Of a DNA stretch of 14,921 nt, positions 1,820 through 14,151 are shown one piece after another. The notes under the pieces are model-generated. The model was given only the letters and a program-made list of their open reading frames with translations. It did no database searches and had not been told where the DNA came from. Source of the DNA: Candidatus Abyssobacteria bacterium SURF_5 (GTDB lineage: Bacteria > Abyssobacteria > SURF-5); the NCBI GenBank assembly GCA_003598085.1, contig QZKU01000036.1:1-14921 (forward strand). The letters are read 5' to 3'. Position 1 is the stretch's first letter, and each line of letters starts with the position of its first letter. The translations under genes and the position numbers were made by a program.

Positions 1820-2266
1820 CTAATGTTTCTTTGAGTATTCTCGTATCAAATTAAAACCATTATCACCGATGAATCTGGAATACGTTAGAAATTTCCGTCC
1901 CTCTGTCCGTTTGGGAAGTGTGAAAGTCCGTGTCCCTTCGTTTTCGCCGCTTTTGTTGCGGGAAGCTAATCTAGCGAGAGTGCGTGAAGGAATGATGGCT
2001 ATCTGATTATTAATTTCCGTATAAAAAATAAAAAACAAATCTGACCTTGGTGCAAATTTTAATCCAGCAAACGTGTAAGGATATTTCGCGTTCCTTGATC
2101 GAGCTTTTATCTGCACATCCACATAACAACCAGATTTCAGGCGAAGCACACAATCTATACCCGAGTCATCAACAAGCGTAAGATATACCTTAAACCTTCT
2201 GCGTAACAATTCAGCTACCGCCAAAAATTCTTGAACCTTCCCAAAGGTCAGACTGGTATTTGCCAT
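1820..2266 (-). CDS. Predicted PD-(D/E)XK nuclease-like protein, 148 aa
   Basis: The layout matches small PD-(D/E)XK proteins such as the DUF4365 / PDDEXK_5 type. An N-terminal helix carries Glu13 and Glu19 (GKVQEFLAVAELLRRRF), a strand has Asp38 in DSGIDCVL, and the next strand has Gln52 and Lys54 in VDVQIKAR. This gives D-x13-QxK, with glutamine where the usual acid stands; several active members use QxK. A predicted hydrophobic strand, LFFIFYT, follows near residues 77-83, as usual after the core. It is the last gene of the operon, 39 nt after the DUF499 gene, in the same direction, with AGGAAGA just before the ATG. It may act as a stand-alone DNA nuclease effector or as a Holliday-junction-resolvase-like accessory. 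No partner immunity gene is seen. The fold call comes from motif order and spacing only. Confidence 0.68.
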   Translation of the reverse strand: MANTSLTFGKVQEFLAVAELLRRRFKVYLTLVDDSGIDCVLRLKSGCYVDVQIKARSRNAKYPYTFAGLKFAPRSDLFFIFYTEINNQIAIIPSRTLARLASRNKSGENEGTRTFTLPKRTEGRKFLTYSRFIGDNGFNLIREYSKKH

Positions 2267-2305
2267 TCTTCCTATCTTTGCGTAAAGAATACTATAATAC
2301 TTTTC

Positions 2306-5300
2306 TCATTCTTGCTCAAAACCATGACTCTTGAACTTCAGGGCGCGGCAGTTTTCCGTAACAGTCCGGATGGTGTCATCGGGTACGCCGTCGGGAACAT
2401 CGGCGTGTATTTCCAAATTCACTTCTACGTTGGAGCCGAGCAAACTAGTCAGATGCTGAACCACTTCCTCGGCGATTCGGCTGGCGTCCCGGCTTAGTCT
2501 GTTAGGATCGAGAGATGCTGAGCCATGAAACCGCCGATATTGTGGAGGTGGCTCGACAGTTGTGGTACCTGTAGAATCTCCTCCAGATTCGCCACCCGGT
2601 CCACTTTCGCCAAGCCTTTCACTCACTGTGGTAGTTGTTCGCGCTTCTGCCGATTCCGCCTCCATTTGAGCTGCCGCAACATCAGGCTTTACAATCAGAC
2701 TCTGCCCATCGGGCAGAACACGAACACCAGGTCCGGTCTGAAGCCCAACATATCTCTTTCTTTGCTCGTCCCATCTCTCAGCGTAAGCGAATGTCTCCGA
2801 CTGCCATGTTAACAGTGAGACTCCGTCGCGAATGGCCAAAAGTAGTACCTCATCATCTGCCAGACGTGGCAAGTAGAGATAAGTGGCAAAGTCCTCTGCC
2901 AGTTGTCTTACTCCCACATTATCCCCCCTCCAAAGGGGGACGCGGTCCAATTCGTGGCGGAGACGGGCACCACCCAACTGCACCATCAGCAGTTCGTCGT
3001 TCTTCAGTTTCTTTGAAGCCCGAACAGCTAAAGCCTCGTGGCCCTGCTGTCGAATTTCAAGCCATTCAAGTGAGCCCTTGGGGTCGGGCTGACTCGGTAC
3101 CAGAAGCCACTGATATGCCTCAGGAATTCGGGCGTCCACTGTCTCGTCTGCGCCTCTCGACTTTGTTTCAGCTTGTCTAGTCTGAAATGAATCGAGGTTC
3201 AGGGTTTCTCGATCTTCCCAGATCGATTTCCAGGCTATATACTGCCGAACCGCTTGTTCCAGATCGCGAAGTCGACTGCTATCAGCTGCGAGAAAAACCA
3301 AAGTGTTTCGGTACGTTCGGGGACTGGTGCCGCGGGAATTGAGTACATCACTGCTCGTCTCAAGAGCAGGACTGGCCTTCTCTTTCGCTGTGTGCGGACG
3401 TTCCGGGCTCAATATCACAAGTCTGGTTTCTCGCTCATCAGGTATATCGCCACTCAAGGCACAAGCATGGACTTTTCCAAATTCTCCGCGCGATCTGGCG
3501 GCATTGCGAAGACGGCGGCTGATCTCATCGTATACATCATCATCGCGTACTTGAGTAGCACGGTCCTGCGCAAGCTTGGCGACTGTCGGTTGAGTAGAGT
3601 ACCAGTATCTTCTTCCGTCGACGTAAAGATATGTTGCTCGGTCAGTGAGTCGCCTGAGAGCATCCCCGAAAATCGCCGCGCTCTCGCCTGCCTGCACGCA
3701 TCCAAGCTTCACTTGCCGGTCATCAATACCCCGATTGGCGGCCCGCTGTACGGGAGCGGAACCCATGTAGATAGTTCGTGCGACGCGCCTGCAAGCTGAA
3801 TAACGGCCAAGATTCGGATTTTCCCGATCAAGCGTAAGCGGTAGCGAAAGCTGCCCATCCACGTCTTTTTCTATAACCGGCACCCACTGATCCTCAAGGT
3901 AGCGAGTAAGTTCGAACTGGACTCGCGGATCCTCCACGGGCACATTTGCCGGCATAATCAGAAGATTATTATCCTGTCGTTCCCAGAGGGAATGTATGAC
4001 AGCAGCCATGAGACGGAGGACTCCACGAGTACGCTGAAACTTGTCCAATGTAGACCAATCGTTATAGAGACGATCAAAAAGCTCTGGATGAATTGGATAT
4101 GCCATCTTGATACGTCGCTCGTAGCTGGCTTCCCTGCATTCAGAGGGAAACTCTTGTTGCTGTCCGGCATACATGTCGACATAAGCGCGCGCGACCTGAT
4201 CAAGATCAATGAACTTTGATGGTTCCGTTATCGGCTGGAATAACCGGCGACGCACTATCTCAAATCCCTCATCCGGACTCGCAGGGCGCCAGGAAGCTTC
4301 CACCCGGCCAATTGCATTCTTCAATCTTGTCAGGGCAATGCGCCCGCGCTCTCCACCAACTTCAATATCTGAAACGACTGCTCGACCATCACGTGGACTG
4401 GGGCTTTCGGATGCTGGAATACTTACGACCACGAGAGTCTGCTTGGCTGCCTTGGCGCTTTCCGTCAGGGCCTGAGCAAAGGTAAACTGTGTATCAAATG
4501 TTCCCGCCGGCAAGCCTCCATTGTCATGGAGTTGGCGCGCAAAGGCCACCCACTCATCTATGAGAATCAGGCACGGCGAATACTGATTAAAGAGTTCCCG
4601 AAGTGAGTCACCCGGATTTGTTGCTGTTTCATCTGCCTCTTTAACAATTCCATACGCCTCTTTCCCGCCGAGTTGCCAAGCGATTTCTCCCCACATAGTC
4701 CTGATCGTAGTTCCGTCAGGTTTCTTATGAGCTTTGCCTGGGGACAACCTTGTGCCCACAATGACGGCCCGGTGGATTTTACGGGGAATTTTGCTATCAA
4801 TGTCCTTCAGCAGATCTTCAATACCGGCCAAATCCGCCGCCGAGACGCCAGAGAAAAGATGATAAAGCGCCAGCATTGAATGCGTCTTGCCGCCGCCGAA
4901 GTTTGTCTGTAATTCAACGACTGGATCGCCGCCTTTGCCTGTGAGACGCTGGACCGCCCGCGTCAGCAAGTGTTTCAATCCCTCTGTAAGAAAGGTACGC
5001 CGAAAAAATTCGGTCGGGTCTTTATACTCATCCGAACCTTCTTTCAGGTAAACCTGCCAGAGGTCTGCAGCAAATTCCGCCTGCTGATAACCACCCGATG
5101 CTACATCCGGATGTGGAGTCACAACTTCCCGCCATGGCTTCAAATTAGTTGCGGGACGACCTTCAACCGGCGCAACTGCCGCCCGGCGAGCATCATAGCG
5201 CCGCTGTTCCTCAAAACGGAGGCGTAGGAGTTCCATTTTCTGTTTTTCCAGCTTTGCCGCCTCAGGTGCGGAAACAGCATTCAGAAGACGCCCAATGGTA

Positions 5301-5620
5301 TCGAGTGCGCGGTAAGCGTCATCGGTGCTGAATGCCTCCATGTGCGCCCACCTGTTCCGGATGTCTCTGACTTCGCTTATAAGGCTTCTCTCCGCATGTC
5401 CTAAGGTCTTTTTGAAAACATTATTCCAATGGTCCCACATCATGGTAAGAGTTATTTGCGGATCGTTCCGGTTTTGCTTTTTATCGCCGAAATACTGCGT
5501 CTCAATCTGTTCCCATTTCCCCTTATGAAAAACCTTCATTTCTCGTTCCACAAAAGGCGCAAGCCCCTTGTTGAGGAGTTCAAGTCCTTCACCAATCCGA
5601 TCACGATTTGTCTTTGCCAC
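2306..5620 (-). CDS. DUF499 (COG1483) AAA+ ATPase with N-terminal Swt1-type HEPN domain, 1104 aa
   Basis: Residues 1-115 form a helical domain ending in RNRWAH (88-93), followed by FSTDDAYRALDTIGRLL. This matches the Swt1-family HEPN domain and keeps the R-x4-H motif of HEPN RNases. A P-loop reads NFGGGKTHS (Lys245, Thr246) and a Walker B strand LILIDEW (Asp355, Glu356), both typical of DUF499. The C-terminus, around VTENCRALKFKSHGFE, is also family-typical, so the protein looks full length. The start is GTG at 5620, with GGAG seven bases upstream. It follows the DUF1156 methylase by 36 nt, the usual partner order for COG1743/COG1483 pairs. I infer an ATP-driven sensor or remodeller working with the methylase and helicase, possibly with RNase output from HEPN. 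A proline/glycine/threonine-rich linker near residues 1000-1030 precedes the C-terminal domain. Family assignment is firm; the role is inferred. Confidence 0.93.
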   Translation of the reverse strand: MAKTNRDRIGEGLELLNKGLAPFVEREMKVFHKGKWEQIETQYFGDKKQNRNDPQITLTMMWDHWNNVFKKTLGHAERSLISEVRDIRNRWAHMEAFSTDDAYRALDTIGRLLNAVSAPEAAKLEKQKMELLRLRFEEQRRYDARRAAVAPVEGRPATNLKPWREVVTPHPDVASGGYQQAEFAADLWQVYLKEGSDEYKDPTEFFRRTFLTEGLKHLLTRAVQRLTGKGGDPVVELQTNFGGGKTHSMLALYHLFSGVSAADLAGIEDLLKDIDSKIPRKIHRAVIVGTRLSPGKAHKKPDGTTIRTMWGEIAWQLGGKEAYGIVKEADETATNPGDSLRELFNQYSPCLILIDEWVAFARQLHDNGGLPAGTFDTQFTFAQALTESAKAAKQTLVVVSIPASESPSPRDGRAVVSDIEVGGERGRIALTRLKNAIGRVEASWRPASPDEGFEIVRRRLFQPITEPSKFIDLDQVARAYVDMYAGQQQEFPSECREASYERRIKMAYPIHPELFDRLYNDWSTLDKFQRTRGVLRLMAAVIHSLWERQDNNLLIMPANVPVEDPRVQFELTRYLEDQWVPVIEKDVDGQLSLPLTLDRENPNLGRYSACRRVARTIYMGSAPVQRAANRGIDDRQVKLGCVQAGESAAIFGDALRRLTDRATYLYVDGRRYWYSTQPTVAKLAQDRATQVRDDDVYDEISRRLRNAARSRGEFGKVHACALSGDIPDERETRLVILSPERPHTAKEKASPALETSSDVLNSRGTSPRTYRNTLVFLAADSSRLRDLEQAVRQYIAWKSIWEDRETLNLDSFQTRQAETKSRGADETVDARIPEAYQWLLVPSQPDPKGSLEWLEIRQQGHEALAVRASKKLKNDELLMVQLGGARLRHELDRVPLWRGDNVGVRQLAEDFATYLYLPRLADDEVLLLAIRDGVSLLTWQSETFAYAERWDEQRKRYVGLQTGPGVRVLPDGQSLIVKPDVAAAQMEAESAEARTTTTVSERLGESGPGGESGGDSTGTTTVEPPPQYRRFHGSASLDPNRLSRDASRIAEEVVQHLTSLLGSNVEVNLEIHADVPDGVPDDTIRTVTENCRALKFKSHGFEQE

Positions 5621-5656
5621 TGTCTCGCTCCAAATTAATAGCGACTATCGATCATA

Positions 5657-8377
5657 TCAGATGAGCTTACCTTGTTCAGTCGGTCTGGCTGTAGTCGCGA
5701 GTTTTACAATTTCCGGCCAGGCGACCACAAGGCCATTGTACGACAAAGCTTCCTTCGACCAACTATTCTTCTCGCAAATTTGGAACAGGCGGTAAGATAA
5801 TTCTCTGGCTGCCTCGCCCGCACCACTACCGAGCTTGCTAAGGAGCTCGGCTGCGCCACTCTCACCGGATTTTTCGAGAGAATATATTAGATGTTGAGTT
5901 ATCTCCCATACGGTCAAACGTTTATCCTTCGCAGGGTCCCAATCTTCTGGCAGTTCGTTCCGATCCAACAGCCGAACCTTTCCTCCACGGGAGAAAACCA
6001 CCCCCGCCTCCACGAGCCCGTTCACGGCTGTGTTCTTTGCTTTCGAAAGAGTCTCTGCATCCCCGTAAAGACCCTCTTTCATTCCATGCTGTTCGAACCA
6101 TGCGAGACACCATCGAGTATCCGTATCAAATTCTGCTTCTTGTTCGGAAAGCACTTCGTCAAGCGTTTGATTTATAAGGGAGAGTGCTGTTCGAACAGTC
6201 ATCCTTCCTCTTGACTCTATAACTTTGGAATATTGAGAAAATATGGCCATGCCAGGTCCAATCGAGGCTTGAGCAAGGTCCACTGGTGCCACATTCCCCT
6301 GTTGGAGATGCTTGAGCGCCGATGGTAGTTTACGTTTAAGTTCATTAAGTAGCTCCCGGCGACTACAATGAGGAGCTTCGAGAGAGCGCTTCCTAGCGAC
6401 AAGGACTATGGCCGAAGCCAATGCGTTGGCATCTTTCGCTACCGCTCGTGCTTTTTTTGTTGTCCGAACTGGCCAGGTTCCAGTAATTTGGAAACCTGCC
6501 TCAACAAGACCCTCAAGCATGGTCTCCCAACCAGTTGAAACACGGTTGCCTCCCTCCGGAGATTCACTACTTTCTTCCTCTTCCTCCTGCTTAAACGCGT
6601 AGTATATCGTGCAGGGGATTGACGGCTCAGCAGTCTGCAAAATTTCAGCAAATACATTTTGGAATCCATGCCGAAAGTGCTTTTCAGCAAGTTCTAATGA
6701 ACCGTGACGTGTGGGAGAGGCGATAAGCTCAGGACCTTTAGGAGTTAAGAGAGTTGCAAATGTATGTGGATCTATACTCTTCAATATCCGCCGCAGCCAG
6801 ACATAAAAGAAGTCAGCAAGGTCAGCATAGCTTATGTTGTCGTAGTAAGGAGGGTCGGTGGAAACTACAGGTGCGCTGCCAAAAGAAGGAGTTTCTTGCC
6901 GGGCATCGGCTTGTTTTACTCTAGCGGGATGAGCCTCGGTTGGAAGAGATTCAAGCGAAGAAGCAACCCATCCAGCCACAGCATCATAAGCCAGCTTTCC
7001 CTCAATGGGATTCGCCTCGCAAAAATCCCAAGCCATAGGAATCGCTTGACGTTGAAACAGGTGGCTCACGTTCTCATTTGTTGGGTTCCATGTCGTTAGA
7101 TTACTATGGTAATCTGTCATTCGAGAGAGCGCGCATGCCAGGTAAAAGGTTACTGCCTCGGCGTAAGCAGTATTCCCTTTCGCGTGTTCCAGGATGTGTT
7201 TTCGAGCATCGAGAATTATGTCGCAAAGTATGTCAAGTGCAACCAGTTGCCTTGGAGTGAACAAATCACCAATATTCTCCATGCCATAGACAGGAGGTTG
7301 AAAATTCCGGTGTTTCTTCGGCATCTCACAATCAGGTCGCCACTTTGGAGATGCTTGCCTTGCGGCTGAAATATGCTGATCACTGGGCGCATGGTAGAAT
7401 TTTCCTCGGTTACCCTCTGTAACAATTGCCATTAATCTGGTTCCCATATTTCCCTGCTTCGCTTGTTTGCGCACATAAGGAAATGGCATAGGATTCTTAC
7501 TCAGAAGGCAGGTCGCGCCTTTGCGGGAAACGGTTCCTTTGACCTCGGGGACTATCCCATTGGCGATATCAAACTCGAAATTGTTTCCCTTTCGATTAAC
7601 CTTCGGGAACACCCATACGTGTCGTTTTTTCCCGGCAAGTTTGAACGATCTAACCAAAGGAACCGCGGCGCCATTGCGCGATGGATCAGGACTTGGCACT
7701 GTCCTCGTCCAAAGCCAGGCAACTACAACATTGCCATCCGGCCCTTTGGGGTAGAGTTTCGACAATCGCTTCTGGGCTTCCTGGCAGACCCACTTCCCGT
7801 ACCAGCGAATGTCATCAGCAAGGCCAGTAGCACCTTTCCAGACAGTGCTGTGAAGAAGATTTTGATCATTTTGCGGATGGACCGGCGGGCTTCCGGAAAA
7901 GGTTGATGGAAACTCAAGAAGTCCCCGCTGGATAGTGACTGCCACAGGATTCAGGTCACTGCTCGTGACTTTAAGGCCAAGTCGCTGAGCTTCAAGTGGA
8001 ATACTTGCTCGTCCAGCAAACATATCCCAAAATTCGGGTGCCTTACCCTTGAACTGTTTGAGGATTATTTCTCTTGCCTTTTCTATAAGTTTCTCGTCAG
8101 TAGTTGCCTCCCAAGTTGCTAATTTAGCGACAAAATCAAGAAGCTCTCTACGTGCCCGTTGAGCTTCTTCGGTTTCAAGACCATTGCCAGGGTCATCAAT
8201 GAGTTGGGCGAACAGGATAGCGCGTGATACGGAGAGCGGAGTCCGTGCCCACCAGTTGTGAATGGCCCGCGGGTGGCCTTTAAGAAATGGATTTTCCGTT
8301 TCCGGCTTTGATCCTTCATTGATTGCCGCAAGCGGTAGCGCTACTTCAATAAGCTTTTTCGAGAAAGTATCAGTCAT
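5657..8377 (-). CDS. DUF1156 (COG1743) N6-adenine DNA methylase, 906 aa
   Basis: The N-terminal DUF1156 signature is clear: ALPLAAINEGS (13-23) and GHPRAIHNWWARTPLSVSRA (34-53). SAM-binding motif I is DMFAGRASIPLEA (118-130), with DLNPVA following (141-146). Catalytic motif IV is STDPPYYDN (506-514), typical of adenine-N6 amino-methyltransferases, in the motif I then IV order. The expected product is m6A in DNA, probably marking host DNA. Two features are odd. The residues where this family usually has zinc-ribbon CxxC pairs read PSPDPSRNG (228-236) and TCLLSKN (289-295), leaving a single cysteine. Also, the last glycine of the FxGxG loop is Ala124. The start ATG overlaps the preceding gene by 8 nt, so translation is likely coupled. 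Length fits full-length family members. Whether it is catalytically active cannot be decided from sequence. Confidence 0.93.
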   Translation of the reverse strand: MTDTFSKKLIEVALPLAAINEGSKPETENPFLKGHPRAIHNWWARTPLSVSRAILFAQLIDDPGNGLETEEAQRARRELLDFVAKLATWEATTDEKLIEKAREIILKQFKGKAPEFWDMFAGRASIPLEAQRLGLKVTSSDLNPVAVTIQRGLLEFPSTFSGSPPVHPQNDQNLLHSTVWKGATGLADDIRWYGKWVCQEAQKRLSKLYPKGPDGNVVVAWLWTRTVPSPDPSRNGAAVPLVRSFKLAGKKRHVWVFPKVNRKGNNFEFDIANGIVPEVKGTVSRKGATCLLSKNPMPFPYVRKQAKQGNMGTRLMAIVTEGNRGKFYHAPSDQHISAARQASPKWRPDCEMPKKHRNFQPPVYGMENIGDLFTPRQLVALDILCDIILDARKHILEHAKGNTAYAEAVTFYLACALSRMTDYHSNLTTWNPTNENVSHLFQRQAIPMAWDFCEANPIEGKLAYDAVAGWVASSLESLPTEAHPARVKQADARQETPSFGSAPVVSTDPPYYDNISYADLADFFYVWLRRILKSIDPHTFATLLTPKGPELIASPTRHGSLELAEKHFRHGFQNVFAEILQTAEPSIPCTIYYAFKQEEEEESSESPEGGNRVSTGWETMLEGLVEAGFQITGTWPVRTTKKARAVAKDANALASAIVLVARKRSLEAPHCSRRELLNELKRKLPSALKHLQQGNVAPVDLAQASIGPGMAIFSQYSKVIESRGRMTVRTALSLINQTLDEVLSEQEAEFDTDTRWCLAWFEQHGMKEGLYGDAETLSKAKNTAVNGLVEAGVVFSRGGKVRLLDRNELPEDWDPAKDKRLTVWEITQHLIYSLEKSGESGAAELLSKLGSGAGEAARELSYRLFQICEKNSWSKEALSYNGLVVAWPEIVKLATTARPTEQGKLI

Positions 8378-8843
8378 TCGTTAATGCCTCCTCGGGCGCC
8401 CATAGTGGCGGCACTCCAGGCAAAACCATTTCATCTATATATGAACATACCGCTGAGGCGGCTCCTCTAGGGGATTTGCAGGGCAAGCCGCCCATGGCGC
8501 GAAGAATATTTCTAACGACTTCATCTTCATTGACTAAACGCGGGAACATCTCCAGATTTATGAATTTTTCCCAGTCTTCCCGTGTTTCGGTGTCATGATC
8601 TTGGAATAGAGGCAATTGCGGCGTATACCTTTCGGCTAAATAGCGTCCGCATATTGCTTCCCAAACTGAGACCAAAGGCGTCATATCTGTAGCTTCCAAA
8701 TCCTGCAGCTTACCTATGGATTCACTTCTGATACAAAGTAATTCTGCAGAACGCAGAAATCGGCGGCGGCATTTCATGAAAAGAGAATAGAGAGCTTGGC
8801 CGGCCTGTTTTTGCTGGAGCCGCGCCAGTTCCTCAACAGTCAT
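8370..8843 (-). CDS. Unrecognised small protein between TOPRIM and methylase genes, 157 aa
   Basis: I do not recognise a family. The ATG at 8843 is chosen over the adjacent in-frame TTG at 8846 because AGAGGA lies seven bases before it. The N-terminal 60 residues look helical and basic (MKCRRRFLRSAELL). A proline-containing stretch, TPQLPLFQDHD, lies around residues 74-84, and a second helical part ends in LPGVPPLWAPEEAL. No catalytic motif, zinc site, signal peptide or membrane segment is evident. The gene starts 13 nt after the TOPRIM stop and its stop overlaps the methylase start by 8 nt, so it is embedded in the operon and probably made alongside the methylase. A structural adaptor, specificity factor or inhibitor would fit that position, but nothing in the sequence chooses among these. 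Confidence 0.78.
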   Translation of the reverse strand: MTVEELARLQQKQAGQALYSLFMKCRRRFLRSAELLCIRSESIGKLQDLEATDMTPLVSVWEAICGRYLAERYTPQLPLFQDHDTETREDWEKFINLEMFPRLVNEDEVVRNILRAMGGLPCKSPRGAASAVCSYIDEMVLPGVPPLWAPEEALTND

Positions 8844-8850
8844 CAAAATT

Positions 8851-8856
8851 TCCTCT
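8851..8856 (-). promoter_or_regulatory. Ribosome binding site for the 157-aa gene
   Basis: AGAGGA sits seven bases before the ATG at 8843 and lies in the short gap just before the TOPRIM stop codon region (8857-8859). It supports the ATG rather than the adjoining TTG as the start. Confidence 0.5.
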
Positions 8857-9468
8857 TTAACTCAGCAAACGACGCGCCCAGTTAACGAAAGCAATGGCAG
8901 CGGGACAATCATGAAGAAGATATTTCTTTGTTAAAGCTTCGCCCATACGAGTGCCGGGCTCTTCTTGCCAGGCTAGCCACGTATGGATTTCCGCTTTCGG
9001 CAAATATGTTGGTTTAAATAGCCTATGGTCGTCTGGTATTTCACTGACGTCATTCTTTGCCCGCGGCCAGAGGACATCTCCTTGCGGTATAAGATCCGCT
9101 ACGAAATCCTCGACCTTTCCTCTTTCTCTGTTATCGGGCATTACCCAGATTCCTACTCTTTTATCTTCTGCGACATCAATAATTGTTCCCTCTCCTACGG
9201 GGGCAACCGGAGCTTGAATGAACGGATATTGATCAGCCACTATGTGTAGCACCTTTTGCCAATTCCTTTTACAGTCTTCATCCGCATCAATGATTATACC
9301 AAGGTTTTGAAGGTCAGTTGCCTGCAATTCCTCGCCCAATGTATCACAGAGGTTCGTAAATCCTTGTTTATCTTTATAGTCGAAAAGGTAGCCAAGATTA
9401 TACTGAATAAGAAGATTTCTCACCACATGGCGATCATTTACACCTTCAAAAATCAGTCTGTTTGCCAT
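8857..9468 (-). CDS. DUF3226 TOPRIM-domain protein, 203 aa
   Basis: The first strand and loop, LIFEGVNDRHVV, place Glu8 where TOPRIM domains hold the catalytic glutamate. A hydrophobic strand then ends in IIIDADED, giving the metal-binding DxD (Asp61, Asp63). This layout and the ~200-residue length match DUF3226, a stand-alone TOPRIM family. TOPRIM domains of OLD nucleases cut DNA, whereas in PARIS (AriB) the TOPRIM protein acts as the effector released by its ATPase partner. The start ATG overlaps the stop of the upstream ATPase gene by one base (TAATG), so the two are translationally coupled and very likely form one complex. I infer the nuclease half of a split OLD-type pair. A tRNA, DNA or other target cannot be read from sequence. 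The C-terminus (about residues 165-203) has no recognised motif. Confidence 0.88.
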   Translation of the reverse strand: MANRLIFEGVNDRHVVRNLLIQYNLGYLFDYKDKQGFTNLCDTLGEELQATDLQNLGIIIDADEDCKRNWQKVLHIVADQYPFIQAPVAPVGEGTIIDVAEDKRVGIWVMPDNRERGKVEDFVADLIPQGDVLWPRAKNDVSEIPDDHRLFKPTYLPKAEIHTWLAWQEEPGTRMGEALTKKYLLHDCPAAIAFVNWARRLLS

Positions 9469-10598
9469 TATCTTATCTCTATATTTTCACCCAGAACAGT
9501 ATTCAGACGGTCTTCATCGAAAACAGCTGATCTGTATTCATCGTTCACAAACTCGACCCGATTTAAAACCCCGTCAATTGAAGTATCTTCCCGCGCAGCC
9601 GCATAAAACGCCTTTATGCATTCATAGCTATGGGAACTGGCAAATACCTGCACATTCAAGCGACGGGCAACTTTCAGAATATACTTCCAAAGAGATGGGA
9701 GTATGGAAAAATGAAGCCCATTTTCGATCTCATCCACCAGCAAAATTCCGTTCTGTGAATTCACTAGAGCCATTCCGATTCCAAAAAGTCGATTCATACC
9801 ATCACCAAGGCTTCGCAATGGAACGGGGGTGGCCGATCTCTCCGTTTTAAGGCGGACAGTAGGATAACCTGAGGAATTTGTACTTAGCACTGCGAAATCG
9901 TCCACCTCTGGTGATATAATCCGCATTGAATCGATAACATCCCGCTCGAGTTCTGTAAGTACCACTTGCCGCCAGAGATTCTCCATCTCCCTCGGGGCGA
10001 GCCCATTTGGACCAACGAAGACTGAATTAATAGTCAGTTCCAACATTGAGCGGGGCTGGAGTTCCCATCGCCGAGCGTGAACTTCAAAGTCCTCGTCGAG
10101 CATCATCATCCGCTGCAAAGAACCAATTTTAACAATCAGGGCCGGAATATCTTCCTCGTAAAGGTCATGGAATTCTGTTGGTCCTTCTGCCGAAGAGACT
10201 GACTGTTCTGCAGCGGCTTTCTTGCGATGGACACGTGCAATAGTAATTCTAAGACTGCTATCCGGCGCATTAATTGGACCAATTTCAATCGTGGAATCAA
10301 ATTGACCGATTTTTGGACGGTCGTGAAAGAGAGAACAGACCGATGGTTCTCCACCACCTCGAATTCCGCATTCGCCCTGAGGATACTCGATTGCTTCGTC
10401 ATGCGCTTGTAATATCTCCCGGAGTATTCTCGGGGAGCCCAAATTGGCATAAAGCCAAAGAGCTTCAAGAATCGTTGACTTGCCGACATTGTTTTTCCCG
10501 ACAAAAAGATTCACCTGTCCGAGGCGTTCCACGACCAGATGGTCAAACGTTCGAAACTGGCGGATTTCCAGATTTTCTAACTTTATAGGAGAAGCCAT
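9468..10598 (-). CDS. OLD/AAA_15-type ABC ATPase, 376 aa
   Basis: The N-terminus, LENLEIRQFRTFDHLVVERL, is the usual first strand pair of RecF/OLD-like ATPases. It is followed by Walker A VGKNNVGKST (33-42). The ABC signature region is RSLGDGMNRLF (262-272), Walker B is GILLVDEIENGLH (284-296) with Glu289/Glu291-type acids, and the switch histidine lies in FASSHSYECI (319-328). The middle part lacks the long coiled coil of SMC/RecN proteins, as expected for the AAA_15/AAA_21 group. There is no C-terminal TOPRIM domain: the chain ends at residue 376, and that activity is encoded by the next gene. AAGGGGA lies about eight bases before the ATG. The gene sits 34 nt after the helicase gene. I infer a sensor ATPase that holds or activates the TOPRIM partner, in the manner of PARIS AriA or a split GajA. 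The family is certain; the trigger is unknown. Confidence 0.92.
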   Translation of the reverse strand: MASPIKLENLEIRQFRTFDHLVVERLGQVNLFVGKNNVGKSTILEALWLYANLGSPRILREILQAHDEAIEYPQGECGIRGGGEPSVCSLFHDRPKIGQFDSTIEIGPINAPDSSLRITIARVHRKKAAAEQSVSSAEGPTEFHDLYEEDIPALIVKIGSLQRMMMLDEDFEVHARRWELQPRSMLELTINSVFVGPNGLAPREMENLWRQVVLTELERDVIDSMRIISPEVDDFAVLSTNSSGYPTVRLKTERSATPVPLRSLGDGMNRLFGIGMALVNSQNGILLVDEIENGLHFSILPSLWKYILKVARRLNVQVFASSHSYECIKAFYAAAREDTSIDGVLNRVEFVNDEYRSAVFDEDRLNTVLGENIEIR

Positions 10599-10632
10599 AG
10601 TTTTTTCCCCTTTTTATGTATATTATAAACTA

Positions 10633-13600
10633 TCAGCGTACCTGCCCACGTCGAAGTAGTTCTTTTAGATTGTAGTTCACACTGGTTACGCCAAAATCTG
10701 GCTCTTTCTGAAATGGTTGACTGACATATACAGGCGCATTTGCCCTTGCTCCTTCAACTTCGACAATAGCAAGAAGGAAATCATCAGGCTTATTAAGGGC
10801 CGTCAGAATCTCGTTTTTGGAGATAGTGACTGTAGCTGCGCCGCTGGCGCGACCCTTTACTTCAATGAAAAGCAGTTTTCCAGTATCAGGTATTGCTGAT
10901 TCCACGTCATATCCCAGATTCTGGTCGCTTACGTCGCGGGGATAGCGGCCAAGCTGGTGCTCTTTGGTGATTACTGCCTGCATCGCGATCTGTTCGATAC
11001 GTGCCGTTTCTTTAGCGAATATAGCTGGCTGCGTGTCGATTTCGCCTTTCAGGCTCCGCAGGAGATTGATTGGGGCGATTAAAGCTCCACCAATTACGAC
11101 CGGAGGCAATGGCGAAAGCCGCCGTTCCTGCTCCAAATCGTCCATGCGCTTCTTTAGCCGGGCCTCCAGTTCGTTAGCGCGCTCACGCGCCTTGCCGGAA
11201 TTGATTCTCGAGTTTGACTTTCCGACATTTTCCTGGGCCTTCAACTCTTCGGCTCGATGGTCCCAGTAGTTGATTTCCTTCGTGAGGCGGTCTTTCACTG
11301 CGGCCATAGTTTTTGCAATTAGTTCCTCGCGAAACCGCTTCACTTCGCCAAGGTGCTTTTGAACGAGATGTTCTATGGCAAAGGAAACTGCTTTATCTTC
11401 CACGTTTTCCTTGAGCCAGGAATCAGCGATGTTTGATCTGAGCAGCCTTTGTTCTTCTTCAGTGGCGGGACGGTAATCAAGATAAGGCGCATAGCCGGCC
11501 ATCCGGGTACGGCCGTGCGGCTGCATTTCGACAAACTGCAATTGGCGCGATGCAATGCGACGATTTCCCTGACGGTCTGAGCGGCCGTCCTGTATTGAAT
11601 GTTCAATGTAAAAAAGAGCACGCACGTCTTCGTCGCCTGTTTCTTTCTCATCAACGAGAATCGAACCTCTACGCAACAGGTCGCGGTATCTTTCGAGGAT
11701 GATATCTATTGTGGAATCCAGGAGCGGATGTCCCGGACAAACAAAGGCGGCCAGCGGCTTCCCGGGAACGCTTATCTCTTCCTTATGAAAGGTGATTCGT
11801 TCGTAACGGGTAAGAACAGGCGCCCCTGTTCCTATCTGCCGATCCCGGTTCCGAATGGTTGCGGGCACATGAGTGATCTCATATCGACGGGGCTCTCGTT
11901 CGCGAATTGTCCCGCCCAAAAGGCGAAAAGCTTCAATAAAGAAAGAGGCTATAAAATGAGGCTGCAATCGCCGAGCATCGGCTCGCTCCATGTCCTCTTT
12001 GATACGACGAACGGCCGCGGCATCCAGACATTCCCGCGACAACGCACAATCTGCCAACAACTGCTCTAGGCGGCTGCGGTCCACAACCTGGTCTACCACA
12101 CGGAAGAGTTTCTCGCGCACTTCCGGCTGTTCACCATAGCGAATCGCCTCAATGAGAAGGTCCCGAAGCGGCTTGTCCTGAAAGAGCTTCCCAAGAACAT
12201 CAAAAACTCTCCCCCCCAACGCCTTCCTCTGCTCATCTATTTTTTTTAGGAGTCGATGATAAACCTCACCCTCCCGTGTTTCCTCTGCAACCAGGTTCCA
12301 CAGATGGCAAACCTCCGTCTGACCGATGCGGTGGATTCGACCAAAGCGCTGCTCAATTCGGTTTGGGTTCCATGGCAGGTCGTAATTAACCATCAGATGC
12401 GCCCTCTGCAGGTTTATTCCCTCACCTGCCGCATCTGTCGCTACCAGGATTTGCACATCCTTGTCCTGAGTAAATTTCTCTTGGGTATTCCTGCGTTCCT
12501 CACGGCCCATCCCACCGTGGATAGACACAATTGCTTCAGGACGACCCAGCAACCCCGCAAGGCGGTCTGATAGATAATTCAACGTGTCGCGATGTTCCGT
12601 AAAGAGGATGAGCTTACGCCTATATCCCTGGGCATCGAACATCTCCGAATTGTTCTGCAGAAGCCTGGAAAGTTCCTCCCATTTCTTATCTAACTGGCTT
12701 TTGCGCACTTTCAGCGCCAAATCCTCGAGATGCTTCAGAGTGGCAATTTCCGCTTCAAGTTCAGCAATGGTTCGAGCGGCGGACGCTTGATCAACAACCG
12801 CCTCCTCGGTAGTTTCAACCTCTGCGTCGGGAGCATCGTCGAGATCGTGAATATCGTCCTCGGTGATGTTTGGCAATTCCCGGGTCGTATCCAGAGGGAG
12901 CTCGGAACCGCGTTTTACAATCTTTTCTTCTCGCAAGCGTTTCTCTAACCTCTCTCGACGACGCCGTAGGGACTGAAGGATTGCCTCGGGAGAAGAAGCT
13001 AGTCGACGTTGAAGAATGGTCAAAGCAAAGCCAACAAGGTTTTTCCGGCGTCCTTCACCTTCTGCCGCCAAGCGGTCAGCACGATTCATTTCATCTCGGA
13101 CATACTCTGTAACCGCGAAATAGAGCTTTGCTTCCAAGTCCGAGAGCTTATAAGAAACCGTATTCGCCCAACGCTCGGGAAAAAGAGGTTTGCCGTCAAA
13201 TTTCAGAAGGCCCTCTTTAGTGACTCGGCGCATGAGGTCTGAAGCATTCGCTGAATGTACTCCATCACGAAACCTGCCTTCGAATCGATCCGCGTCCAGC
13301 AGCGCCATGAATAACTGGAAATCTTCTTCTTTACCATTATGCGGAGTCGCAGTCATGAGCAGGAAATGGCGAGACAGTCTTCCGAGGACACGACCGAGTT
13401 TGTACCGCTTCGTTTCTTTTATTTCACCACTGAAGAAGGACGCGTGCATCTTATGAGCTTCATCCACAACAATTACGTCCCAATCCGTCTGATTCAGTTT
13501 GGCGATAATGTCATCACTCCGGCTCATAAGATCGAGGCGGCTGACAACCAGATTCTTTTCTCCGTACGGATTGCCCGTGCGCGATGCTTCAATGGTAGCC

Positions 13601-14151
13601 CGATCGACGATCTCGAATGGCAGATGGAACTTCGAATCAAGTTCGTCCTGCCATTGTTCGGCAAGATTTCCAGGACAGCATATCAAACAGCGATGAAGGT
13701 CGCCCCGAATTATCAGTTCCTTGATGAGAAGTCCGGCCATAATGGTCTTGCCCGCGCCCGGATCATCTGCAAGAAGAAATCGGAGGGGTTGCCGGGGAAG
13801 CATAGCTTCGTATACGGCAGTTATCTGATGGGGCAATGGTTCAACAATGGATGTGTGTATGGCCAGAAGAGGGTCAAACAAGTGCGCCAGACTGATTCTG
13901 CGGGCTTCTGACGCAAGTCGAAAATGTGCGCCATCGCTGTCAAAGCTGAAAGGAGTACCTTGAGTGACTATTTCAAGAGATGATTCCTGATCCCGATATA
14001 GCAATTCGTTTGCCGGGCGTCCTGAAGCATCTTTATATGTCACCTCCACGACAGCAGAGCCGTGCCACTTCACATCAATTATAGTGACAAGGCCGTCCGG
14101 CAGGATTCCTTTGACCGATGCGCCTCTTTTTAGGTCTTCAAGCTTCGCCAT
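10633..14151 (-). CDS. SNF2-type helicase with C-terminal DUF3883 (PD-(D/E)XK-like) domain, 1172 aa
   Basis: A small N-terminal beta-rich region (1-65) precedes a full superfamily 2 engine. Walker A is ADDPGAGKTIMAG (128-140), motif Ia CCPGNLAEQW, motif II VVDEAH (228-233) and motif III LMTATPHN (265-272). Motif V is TDAAGEGINLQ and motif VI is RFGRIHRIGQ (602-611). Residues 385-500 hold a charged coiled-coil insert with an acidic stretch. The last ~105 residues match DUF3883/NOV_C: GYDVES (Asp1082) and LFIEVKG (Glu1097, Lys1099), the D and ExK of a PD-(D/E)XK-like fold. Helicases of this build occur in DISARM class 1 (DrmD) and with DUF1156/DUF499 pairs. It is the first gene of the operon, with its promoter about 120 bases upstream; the Shine-Dalgarno is weak (AAGAAC or AGGATA). 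I infer a DNA translocase bringing a nuclease-like domain to foreign DNA. The DrmD label is not claimed, as other DISARM genes are missing. Confidence 0.94.
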   Translation of the reverse strand: MAKLEDLKRGASVKGILPDGLVTIIDVKWHGSAVVEVTYKDASGRPANELLYRDQESSLEIVTQGTPFSFDSDGAHFRLASEARRISLAHLFDPLLAIHTSIVEPLPHQITAVYEAMLPRQPLRFLLADDPGAGKTIMAGLLIKELIIRGDLHRCLICCPGNLAEQWQDELDSKFHLPFEIVDRATIEASRTGNPYGEKNLVVSRLDLMSRSDDIIAKLNQTDWDVIVVDEAHKMHASFFSGEIKETKRYKLGRVLGRLSRHFLLMTATPHNGKEEDFQLFMALLDADRFEGRFRDGVHSANASDLMRRVTKEGLLKFDGKPLFPERWANTVSYKLSDLEAKLYFAVTEYVRDEMNRADRLAAEGEGRRKNLVGFALTILQRRLASSPEAILQSLRRRRERLEKRLREEKIVKRGSELPLDTTRELPNITEDDIHDLDDAPDAEVETTEEAVVDQASAARTIAELEAEIATLKHLEDLALKVRKSQLDKKWEELSRLLQNNSEMFDAQGYRRKLILFTEHRDTLNYLSDRLAGLLGRPEAIVSIHGGMGREERRNTQEKFTQDKDVQILVATDAAGEGINLQRAHLMVNYDLPWNPNRIEQRFGRIHRIGQTEVCHLWNLVAEETREGEVYHRLLKKIDEQRKALGGRVFDVLGKLFQDKPLRDLLIEAIRYGEQPEVREKLFRVVDQVVDRSRLEQLLADCALSRECLDAAAVRRIKEDMERADARRLQPHFIASFFIEAFRLLGGTIREREPRRYEITHVPATIRNRDRQIGTGAPVLTRYERITFHKEEISVPGKPLAAFVCPGHPLLDSTIDIILERYRDLLRRGSILVDEKETGDEDVRALFYIEHSIQDGRSDRQGNRRIASRQLQFVEMQPHGRTRMAGYAPYLDYRPATEEEQRLLRSNIADSWLKENVEDKAVSFAIEHLVQKHLGEVKRFREELIAKTMAAVKDRLTKEINYWDHRAEELKAQENVGKSNSRINSGKARERANELEARLKKRMDDLEQERRLSPLPPVVIGGALIAPINLLRSLKGEIDTQPAIFAKETARIEQIAMQAVITKEHQLGRYPRDVSDQNLGYDVESAIPDTGKLLFIEVKGRASGAATVTISKNEILTALNKPDDFLLAIVEVEGARANAPVYVSQPFQKEPDFGVTSVNYNLKELLRRGQVR

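Follow-up and report, generated by a model that had tools for sequence, protein, structure and literature searches.

The window analyzed here, a single complete contig of 14,921 bp from the 5.1-Mb genome of Candidatus Abyssobacteria bacterium SURF_5, carries a tightly spaced operon of seven genes, whose neighborhood can be read only within the contig ends. The original prediction took the operon for one composite defense system of apparently undescribed content, in which an ATPase and TOPRIM pair is embedded in a methylase, DUF499 and SNF2 helicase core. The question raised by this locus is whether its seven genes belong together as one system, or whether a known system has taken up a module with an existence of its own.

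Operon layout

The genes all lie on the minus strand and run in the same direction, from 14151 to 1820, as follows.

hmaA: 10633..14151, minus strand, 1172 aa; SNF2/DEAD-type helicase with a C-terminal NOV_C/DUF3883 (PD-(D/E)XK-type) nuclease
PDC-M38A: 9468..10598, minus strand, 376 aa; OLD-type ABC ATPase without a fused TOPRIM
PDC-M38B: 8857..9468, minus strand, 203 aa; DUF3226 protein, TOPRIM-like putative nuclease
unk158: 8370..8846, minus strand, 158 aa from TTG or 157 from the next codon, ATG; orphan accessory gene
hmaB: 5657..8377, minus strand, 906 aa; DUF1156 DNA adenine-type methylase with a DPPY motif
hmaC: 2306..5620, minus strand, 1104 aa; Swt1-like HEPN fused to a DUF499 AAA+ ATPase
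DUF4365-like gene: 1820..2266, minus strand, 148 aa; putative PD-(D/E)XK protein, the last gene of the operon as judged by spacing

Successive intergenic distances are 34, -1, 10, -8, 36 and 39 nt, so that the seven same-strand open reading frames, the maximum gap of 39 nt and the two overlaps originally described are all confirmed. The junction between the ATPase and TOPRIM-like genes reads TAATG, a 1-nt overlap, and the 3' end of unk158 overlaps the start of hmaB by 8 nt, with the AGGAGG ribosome site of hmaB lying inside unk158. This spacing suggests that the seven genes are co-transcribed, possibly with an internal promoter; scans for promoters and terminators returned no more signals than shuffled sequences, Rfam gave no match, and no notable repeats were seen around the insert. 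Catalytic motifs are present in the operon, among them those of the helicase-nuclease, ATPase, methylase and HEPN (DEAH, GYD..EVK, GKNNVGKS, LLVDE, IFEG with DAD, DPPY and RNRWAH). Beyond a 464-nt gap lie two further minus-strand frames that we did not count in the operon; one resembles gamma-glutamyl cyclotransferase genes, and the other, of 239 aa (135-854), has no match in any library searched.

The domain assignments first made from the translations were borne out by Pfam for SNF2 with NOV_C, AAA_15/AAA_21, DUF3226, DUF1156 and HEPN_Swt1 with DUF499. The PD-(D/E)XK assignment of the last gene is only partly upheld: its 148-aa product contains GID..QIK, but its DUF4365 match (E=0.017) falls under the Pfam cut-off. 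The gene was not found in the 80 Hma loci that we fetched, and in the nearest relative among them (L032:3628-5346) its place after hmaC is taken by genes of the XRE-ImmA-like and DUF4411 types.

The core is a Hma operon

The methylase, DUF499 and SNF2 genes, rightly recognized from the start as a recurrent set, match HmaA, HmaB and HmaC of PADLOC over nearly their full length and hence correspond to Hma or Type-1 BR. HmaA matches its PADLOC model with 1691.9 bits over residues 1-1170 and contains SNF2-rel_dom, Helicase_C and NOV_C (69.2 bits) domains with the motifs GAGKT, DEAH and GYD..FIEVK. HmaB scores 988 bits, with a Pfam DUF1156 domain and DPPY at residue 508; its motif I is the variant DMFAGRAS, which reads DMFGGRAS in L052 and DPF.GGGS in most relatives matched. 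The HmaC match (1100 bits) starts at residue 159, after a HEPN_Swt1 domain at 12-117 (120 bits) that carries the HEPN motif (Rx4H) RNRWAH at residue 88, and the Walker A motif, read directly from the translation, is NFGGGKTH. An SNF2 helicase, a DUF1156 N6-type methylase and a DUF499 ATPase thus stand in one operon, and the C-terminal nuclease of the helicase, with an intact motif, and the HEPN domain on the ATPase are both present in the sequence.

Hma was named in PMC8565338, with 1,638 instances in 26 phyla, and a set of HEPN-DUF499, restriction-modification and SNF2-DUF3883 genes was noted in PMC3710099. It was re-classed as Type-1 BREX-related in PMC12839542, which counts 2,446 taxa and a HEPN fusion in 1,370, and a passage of which cites an experimental report of nuclease-helicase antiphage activity. 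The three core proteins, the HEPN-DUF499 fusion and the helicase-nuclease fusion are common to our operon and the DUF499-centered Type-1 systems described in PMC8565338 and PMC12839542, and the gene order is that of the fetched Hma loci. There is no essential difference beyond the added embedded and trailing genes, which many Hma loci also have. Judged by its sequence, the core is a complete copy of Hma (Type-1 BREX-related), a known predicted anti-virus system.

The embedded pair is PDC-M38

The two genes between hmaA and unk158 also have a known counterpart. The 376-aa ATPase matches PDC-M38A with 284.4 bits over residues 7-376, belongs to AAA_15/AAA_21, and gives profile matches to the PtuA, OLD, AriA and GajA structures. 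It adjoins, with the 1-nt overlap, a 203-aa protein that matches Pfam DUF3226 (182.7 bits) and PADLOC PDC-M38B (160 bits) and conserves E8-G9, D61-A62 and E120. These short motifs make the DUF3226 protein putatively TOPRIM-like; its structure model is poor (pLDDT 42) and its PDB match, to 1t6t, is weak (E 0.02). PDC-M38 (PADLOC-DB 2.0.0) is the best PADLOC match for both genes, and we find no essential difference from it, although the pair is embedded in Hma here and is usually unlinked to Hma in the genomes searched. The proposal that the pair resembles a complete module of its own was well founded.

Two related systems were considered. PARIS (AriA/AriB) likewise consists of a split OLD-type ATPase and a TOPRIM-type partner, for which a backup role against anti-restriction has been proposed, but the AriA models score far below PDC-M38A for this ATPase (90 vs 284 bits) and the 203-aa protein has no AriB match at E<=0.001. 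Gabija and other single-chain OLD proteins (GajA) do not fit a pair in which ATPase and TOPRIM-like parts occupy two genes (376 and 203 aa).

The view that this exact content was undescribed does not hold for the core or the pair. A passage in PMC12988326 derives the PDC models from a guilt-by-embedding screen, and OLD/TOPRIM modules embedded in Type-1 BREX-related operons have been published (PMC12839542); Hma with an embedded pair is an arrangement of the published kind.

A slot between hmaA and hmaB

Among 80 Hma loci fetched by HmaB similarity, a sample biased to the nearest relatives of the window, we counted co-oriented genes and scored a gap as filled at >=250 nt, using simple ORF calling that includes some broken genes. 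On this basis the HmaA-HmaB gap is filled in 49/56 loci and the HmaB-HmaC gap in 21/63, and some Hma operons have no insert at all. Many defense modules use this slot. Its proteins match the AriA, HEC-01A, AbiLi, GajA, PtuA, PDC-S01 and NsnB models, among others, and include OLD/AAA_15, Schlafen, GmrSD, DUF4143, RloB, NYN, AbiEii and Uma2 families.

Co-oriented pairs lie directly 5' of hmaB in L052, L075, L185 and L199. The order helicase, pair, methylase is kept in one orientation in L052, L185 and L199, with an extra insert before the pair in L052 and L199, while in L075 the helicase gene is reduced to an in-frame 3' end near the contig end. As called, the M38B and HmaB frames share bases at their junction in L075, L185 and L199. 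A further pair, in L035, is inverted between hmaA and hmaB. The same Hma operon holds two inserts (L035:8724-10397 and 13274-15024), the other being a Schlafen/AlbA_2 gene that separates hmaB from hmaC. Separately, L034:10705-14898 contains a 1,398-aa open frame that joins the HmaA N-terminus to HmaB with a transposase-like stretch within, and that may be an in-frame fusion, a deletion remnant or an assembly artefact.

The pair moves independently of Hma

A count from the side of the cassette was obtained from four DUF3226-gene searches; the genome search covers only three genomes of the window's phylum. Not counting the window and two search centers, 47 pairs were obtained on 45 stretches; three matched stretches (L197, L206 and L207) gave no pair at the thresholds used. 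ATPase and DUF3226 genes are adjacent on one strand in all 47. Three of them are embedded in Hma, inverted in L035 and co-oriented in L185 and L199, and two adjoin other DUF499 operons (L044 and L189), leaving 42/47 by neither; some of the contigs are short, and linkage to Hma may therefore have been missed for some pairs. Small plasmids (6.4 and 9.7 kb) carry the pair without Hma, and on a large plasmid it adjoins phage-tail genes. The pair is an independently mobile unit of its own.

Two side observations arose from these stretches. L044:2552-15514 is a DUF499/methylase-type operon with an M38 pair as well as an NsnA/NsnB pair, and the 4114 bp contig L186 holds two M38 pairs, one of them the second closest to that of the window (38 and 49% identity).

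We built a tree from 53 concatenated pairs. The five that are embedded in Hma in the co-oriented way (window, L052, L075, L185 and L199) belong to a single clade of 15 members (support 100), whose other ten pairs are mostly unlinked; an AU test does not reject monophyly of the five (p=0.35). In the HmaB tree, where FastTree supports are moderate in the region of the M38-bearing operons, the window groups with L052; L075 and L199 lie among M38-free relatives; L185 stands beside L121; and L035 is far away. With the co-oriented embedded pairs in one clade and their HmaB genes in separate places, M38 appears to be a cassette exchanged into one slot. In our reading, a single M38 lineage was transferred repeatedly into this slot, and an inverted pair was inserted once, independently; one ancient gain followed by many losses would be less economical. 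Trees and count together establish the HmaA-HmaB gap as a cassette slot, which one OLD-type pair lineage occupies in unrelated Hma operons.

It is in this light that the idea of one integrated seven-gene system, with the pair and the 158-aa protein obligate to the Hma machine, has to be judged. The tight spacing and overlaps, and the well-supported clade shared by the five co-oriented pairs, are what such a system would lead us to expect. However, most pairs lie away from Hma and other DUF499 operons, one embedded copy is inverted, Hma exists insert-free and the HmaB genes of M38-bearing operons are dispersed over the HmaB tree, which together make an obligate system very improbable. The expected position between helicase and methylase does recur in L052, L185, L199 and L075, but it is not general, with 42/47 pairs elsewhere, and the independence of the pair from the other genes, named beforehand as counting against a single system, is what was found for most copies.

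At the other extreme, the pair could be a selfish addiction or exclusion cassette for which the Hma operon is a mere transcribed landing site, gaining nothing. Its presence on small plasmids and by phage-tail genes, and the many unrelated inserts that share the slot, would suit this reading. It nevertheless seems unlikely, as many defense families are among the slot contents and the co-oriented embedded pairs are closely related rather than random draws.

The orphan unk158

The only new part of the locus is the small and almost unique unk158 gene, which has no match in PADLOC, Pfam, NCBIfam or PHROGs. Single-sequence searches of genome contigs, tblastn of plasmids and a search of viral contigs gave no match, and other small genes 5' of hmaB are not relatives. 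The sole relative found (L121:9440-9913, Acidobacteriota, 45% identity) also lies directly 5' of hmaB, in the order HmaA, PDC-S01, HEC-01A, HEC-01B, unk158 relative, HmaB. Given this order, both copies have an ATPase/TOPRIM-like pair on one side and hmaB on the other, a pattern seen in two cases only. A search of 393 genomes around the Acidobacteriota relative recovered no match outside that genome itself except a weak hit, whose frame reads as chance and coincides with a long open frame on the opposite strand. In L052, the closest operon, the pair occurs without unk158.

HEC-01, the PADLOC Hma-embedded candidate that precedes the unk158 relative in L121, resembles M38 in being an ATPase with a small TOPRIM-like (DUF4276) partner in the same slot. 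The ATPase and second-gene families of the two differ, however, and hhalign of the two second genes gave no real match. The unk158 protein is predicted, at low confidence, to be helical; its structure model is poor (pLDDT 45), and an adaptor or immunity role is our guess. That it founds a new adaptor family, tying exchangeable ATPase/TOPRIM-type effectors (M38 and HEC-01, in two phyla) to the Hma methylase, is a tentative and rather doubtful suggestion. The orphan offers a concrete starting point for asking how embedded modules might be coupled to their host operon.

A model for the composite operon

The locus is probably a Hma restriction-modification-like operon whose HmaA-HmaB slot took up a PDC-M38 cassette and a small accessory gene, providing sensor-gated backup killing. 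The core would most likely act in modification-based restriction and the pair as a sensor-gated toxic nuclease; we infer the biochemical steps, their trigger and their sequence from the protein families, with the core mechanism modeled on PMC12839542 and PMC3710099. In this model, HmaB would methylate host DNA, and the HmaC ATPase would assemble on unmodified DNA and direct the HmaA helicase-nuclease, which would degrade it. The M38 ATPase may serve as a sensor that restrains its TOPRIM-like partner and, on sensing infection or an anti-restriction protein, frees the nuclease, by analogy with AriA/AriB in PARIS. The HEPN domain of HmaC would plausibly be another backup, working as a suicide RNase.

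Elsewhere in the same genome we observed a second DUF499 gene (G000:C101:2500-4977, 241.6 bits to HmaC) and, on another contig, a second DUF1156 gene (G000:C53:117701-117859), which suggests that the genome holds further BREX-related systems.
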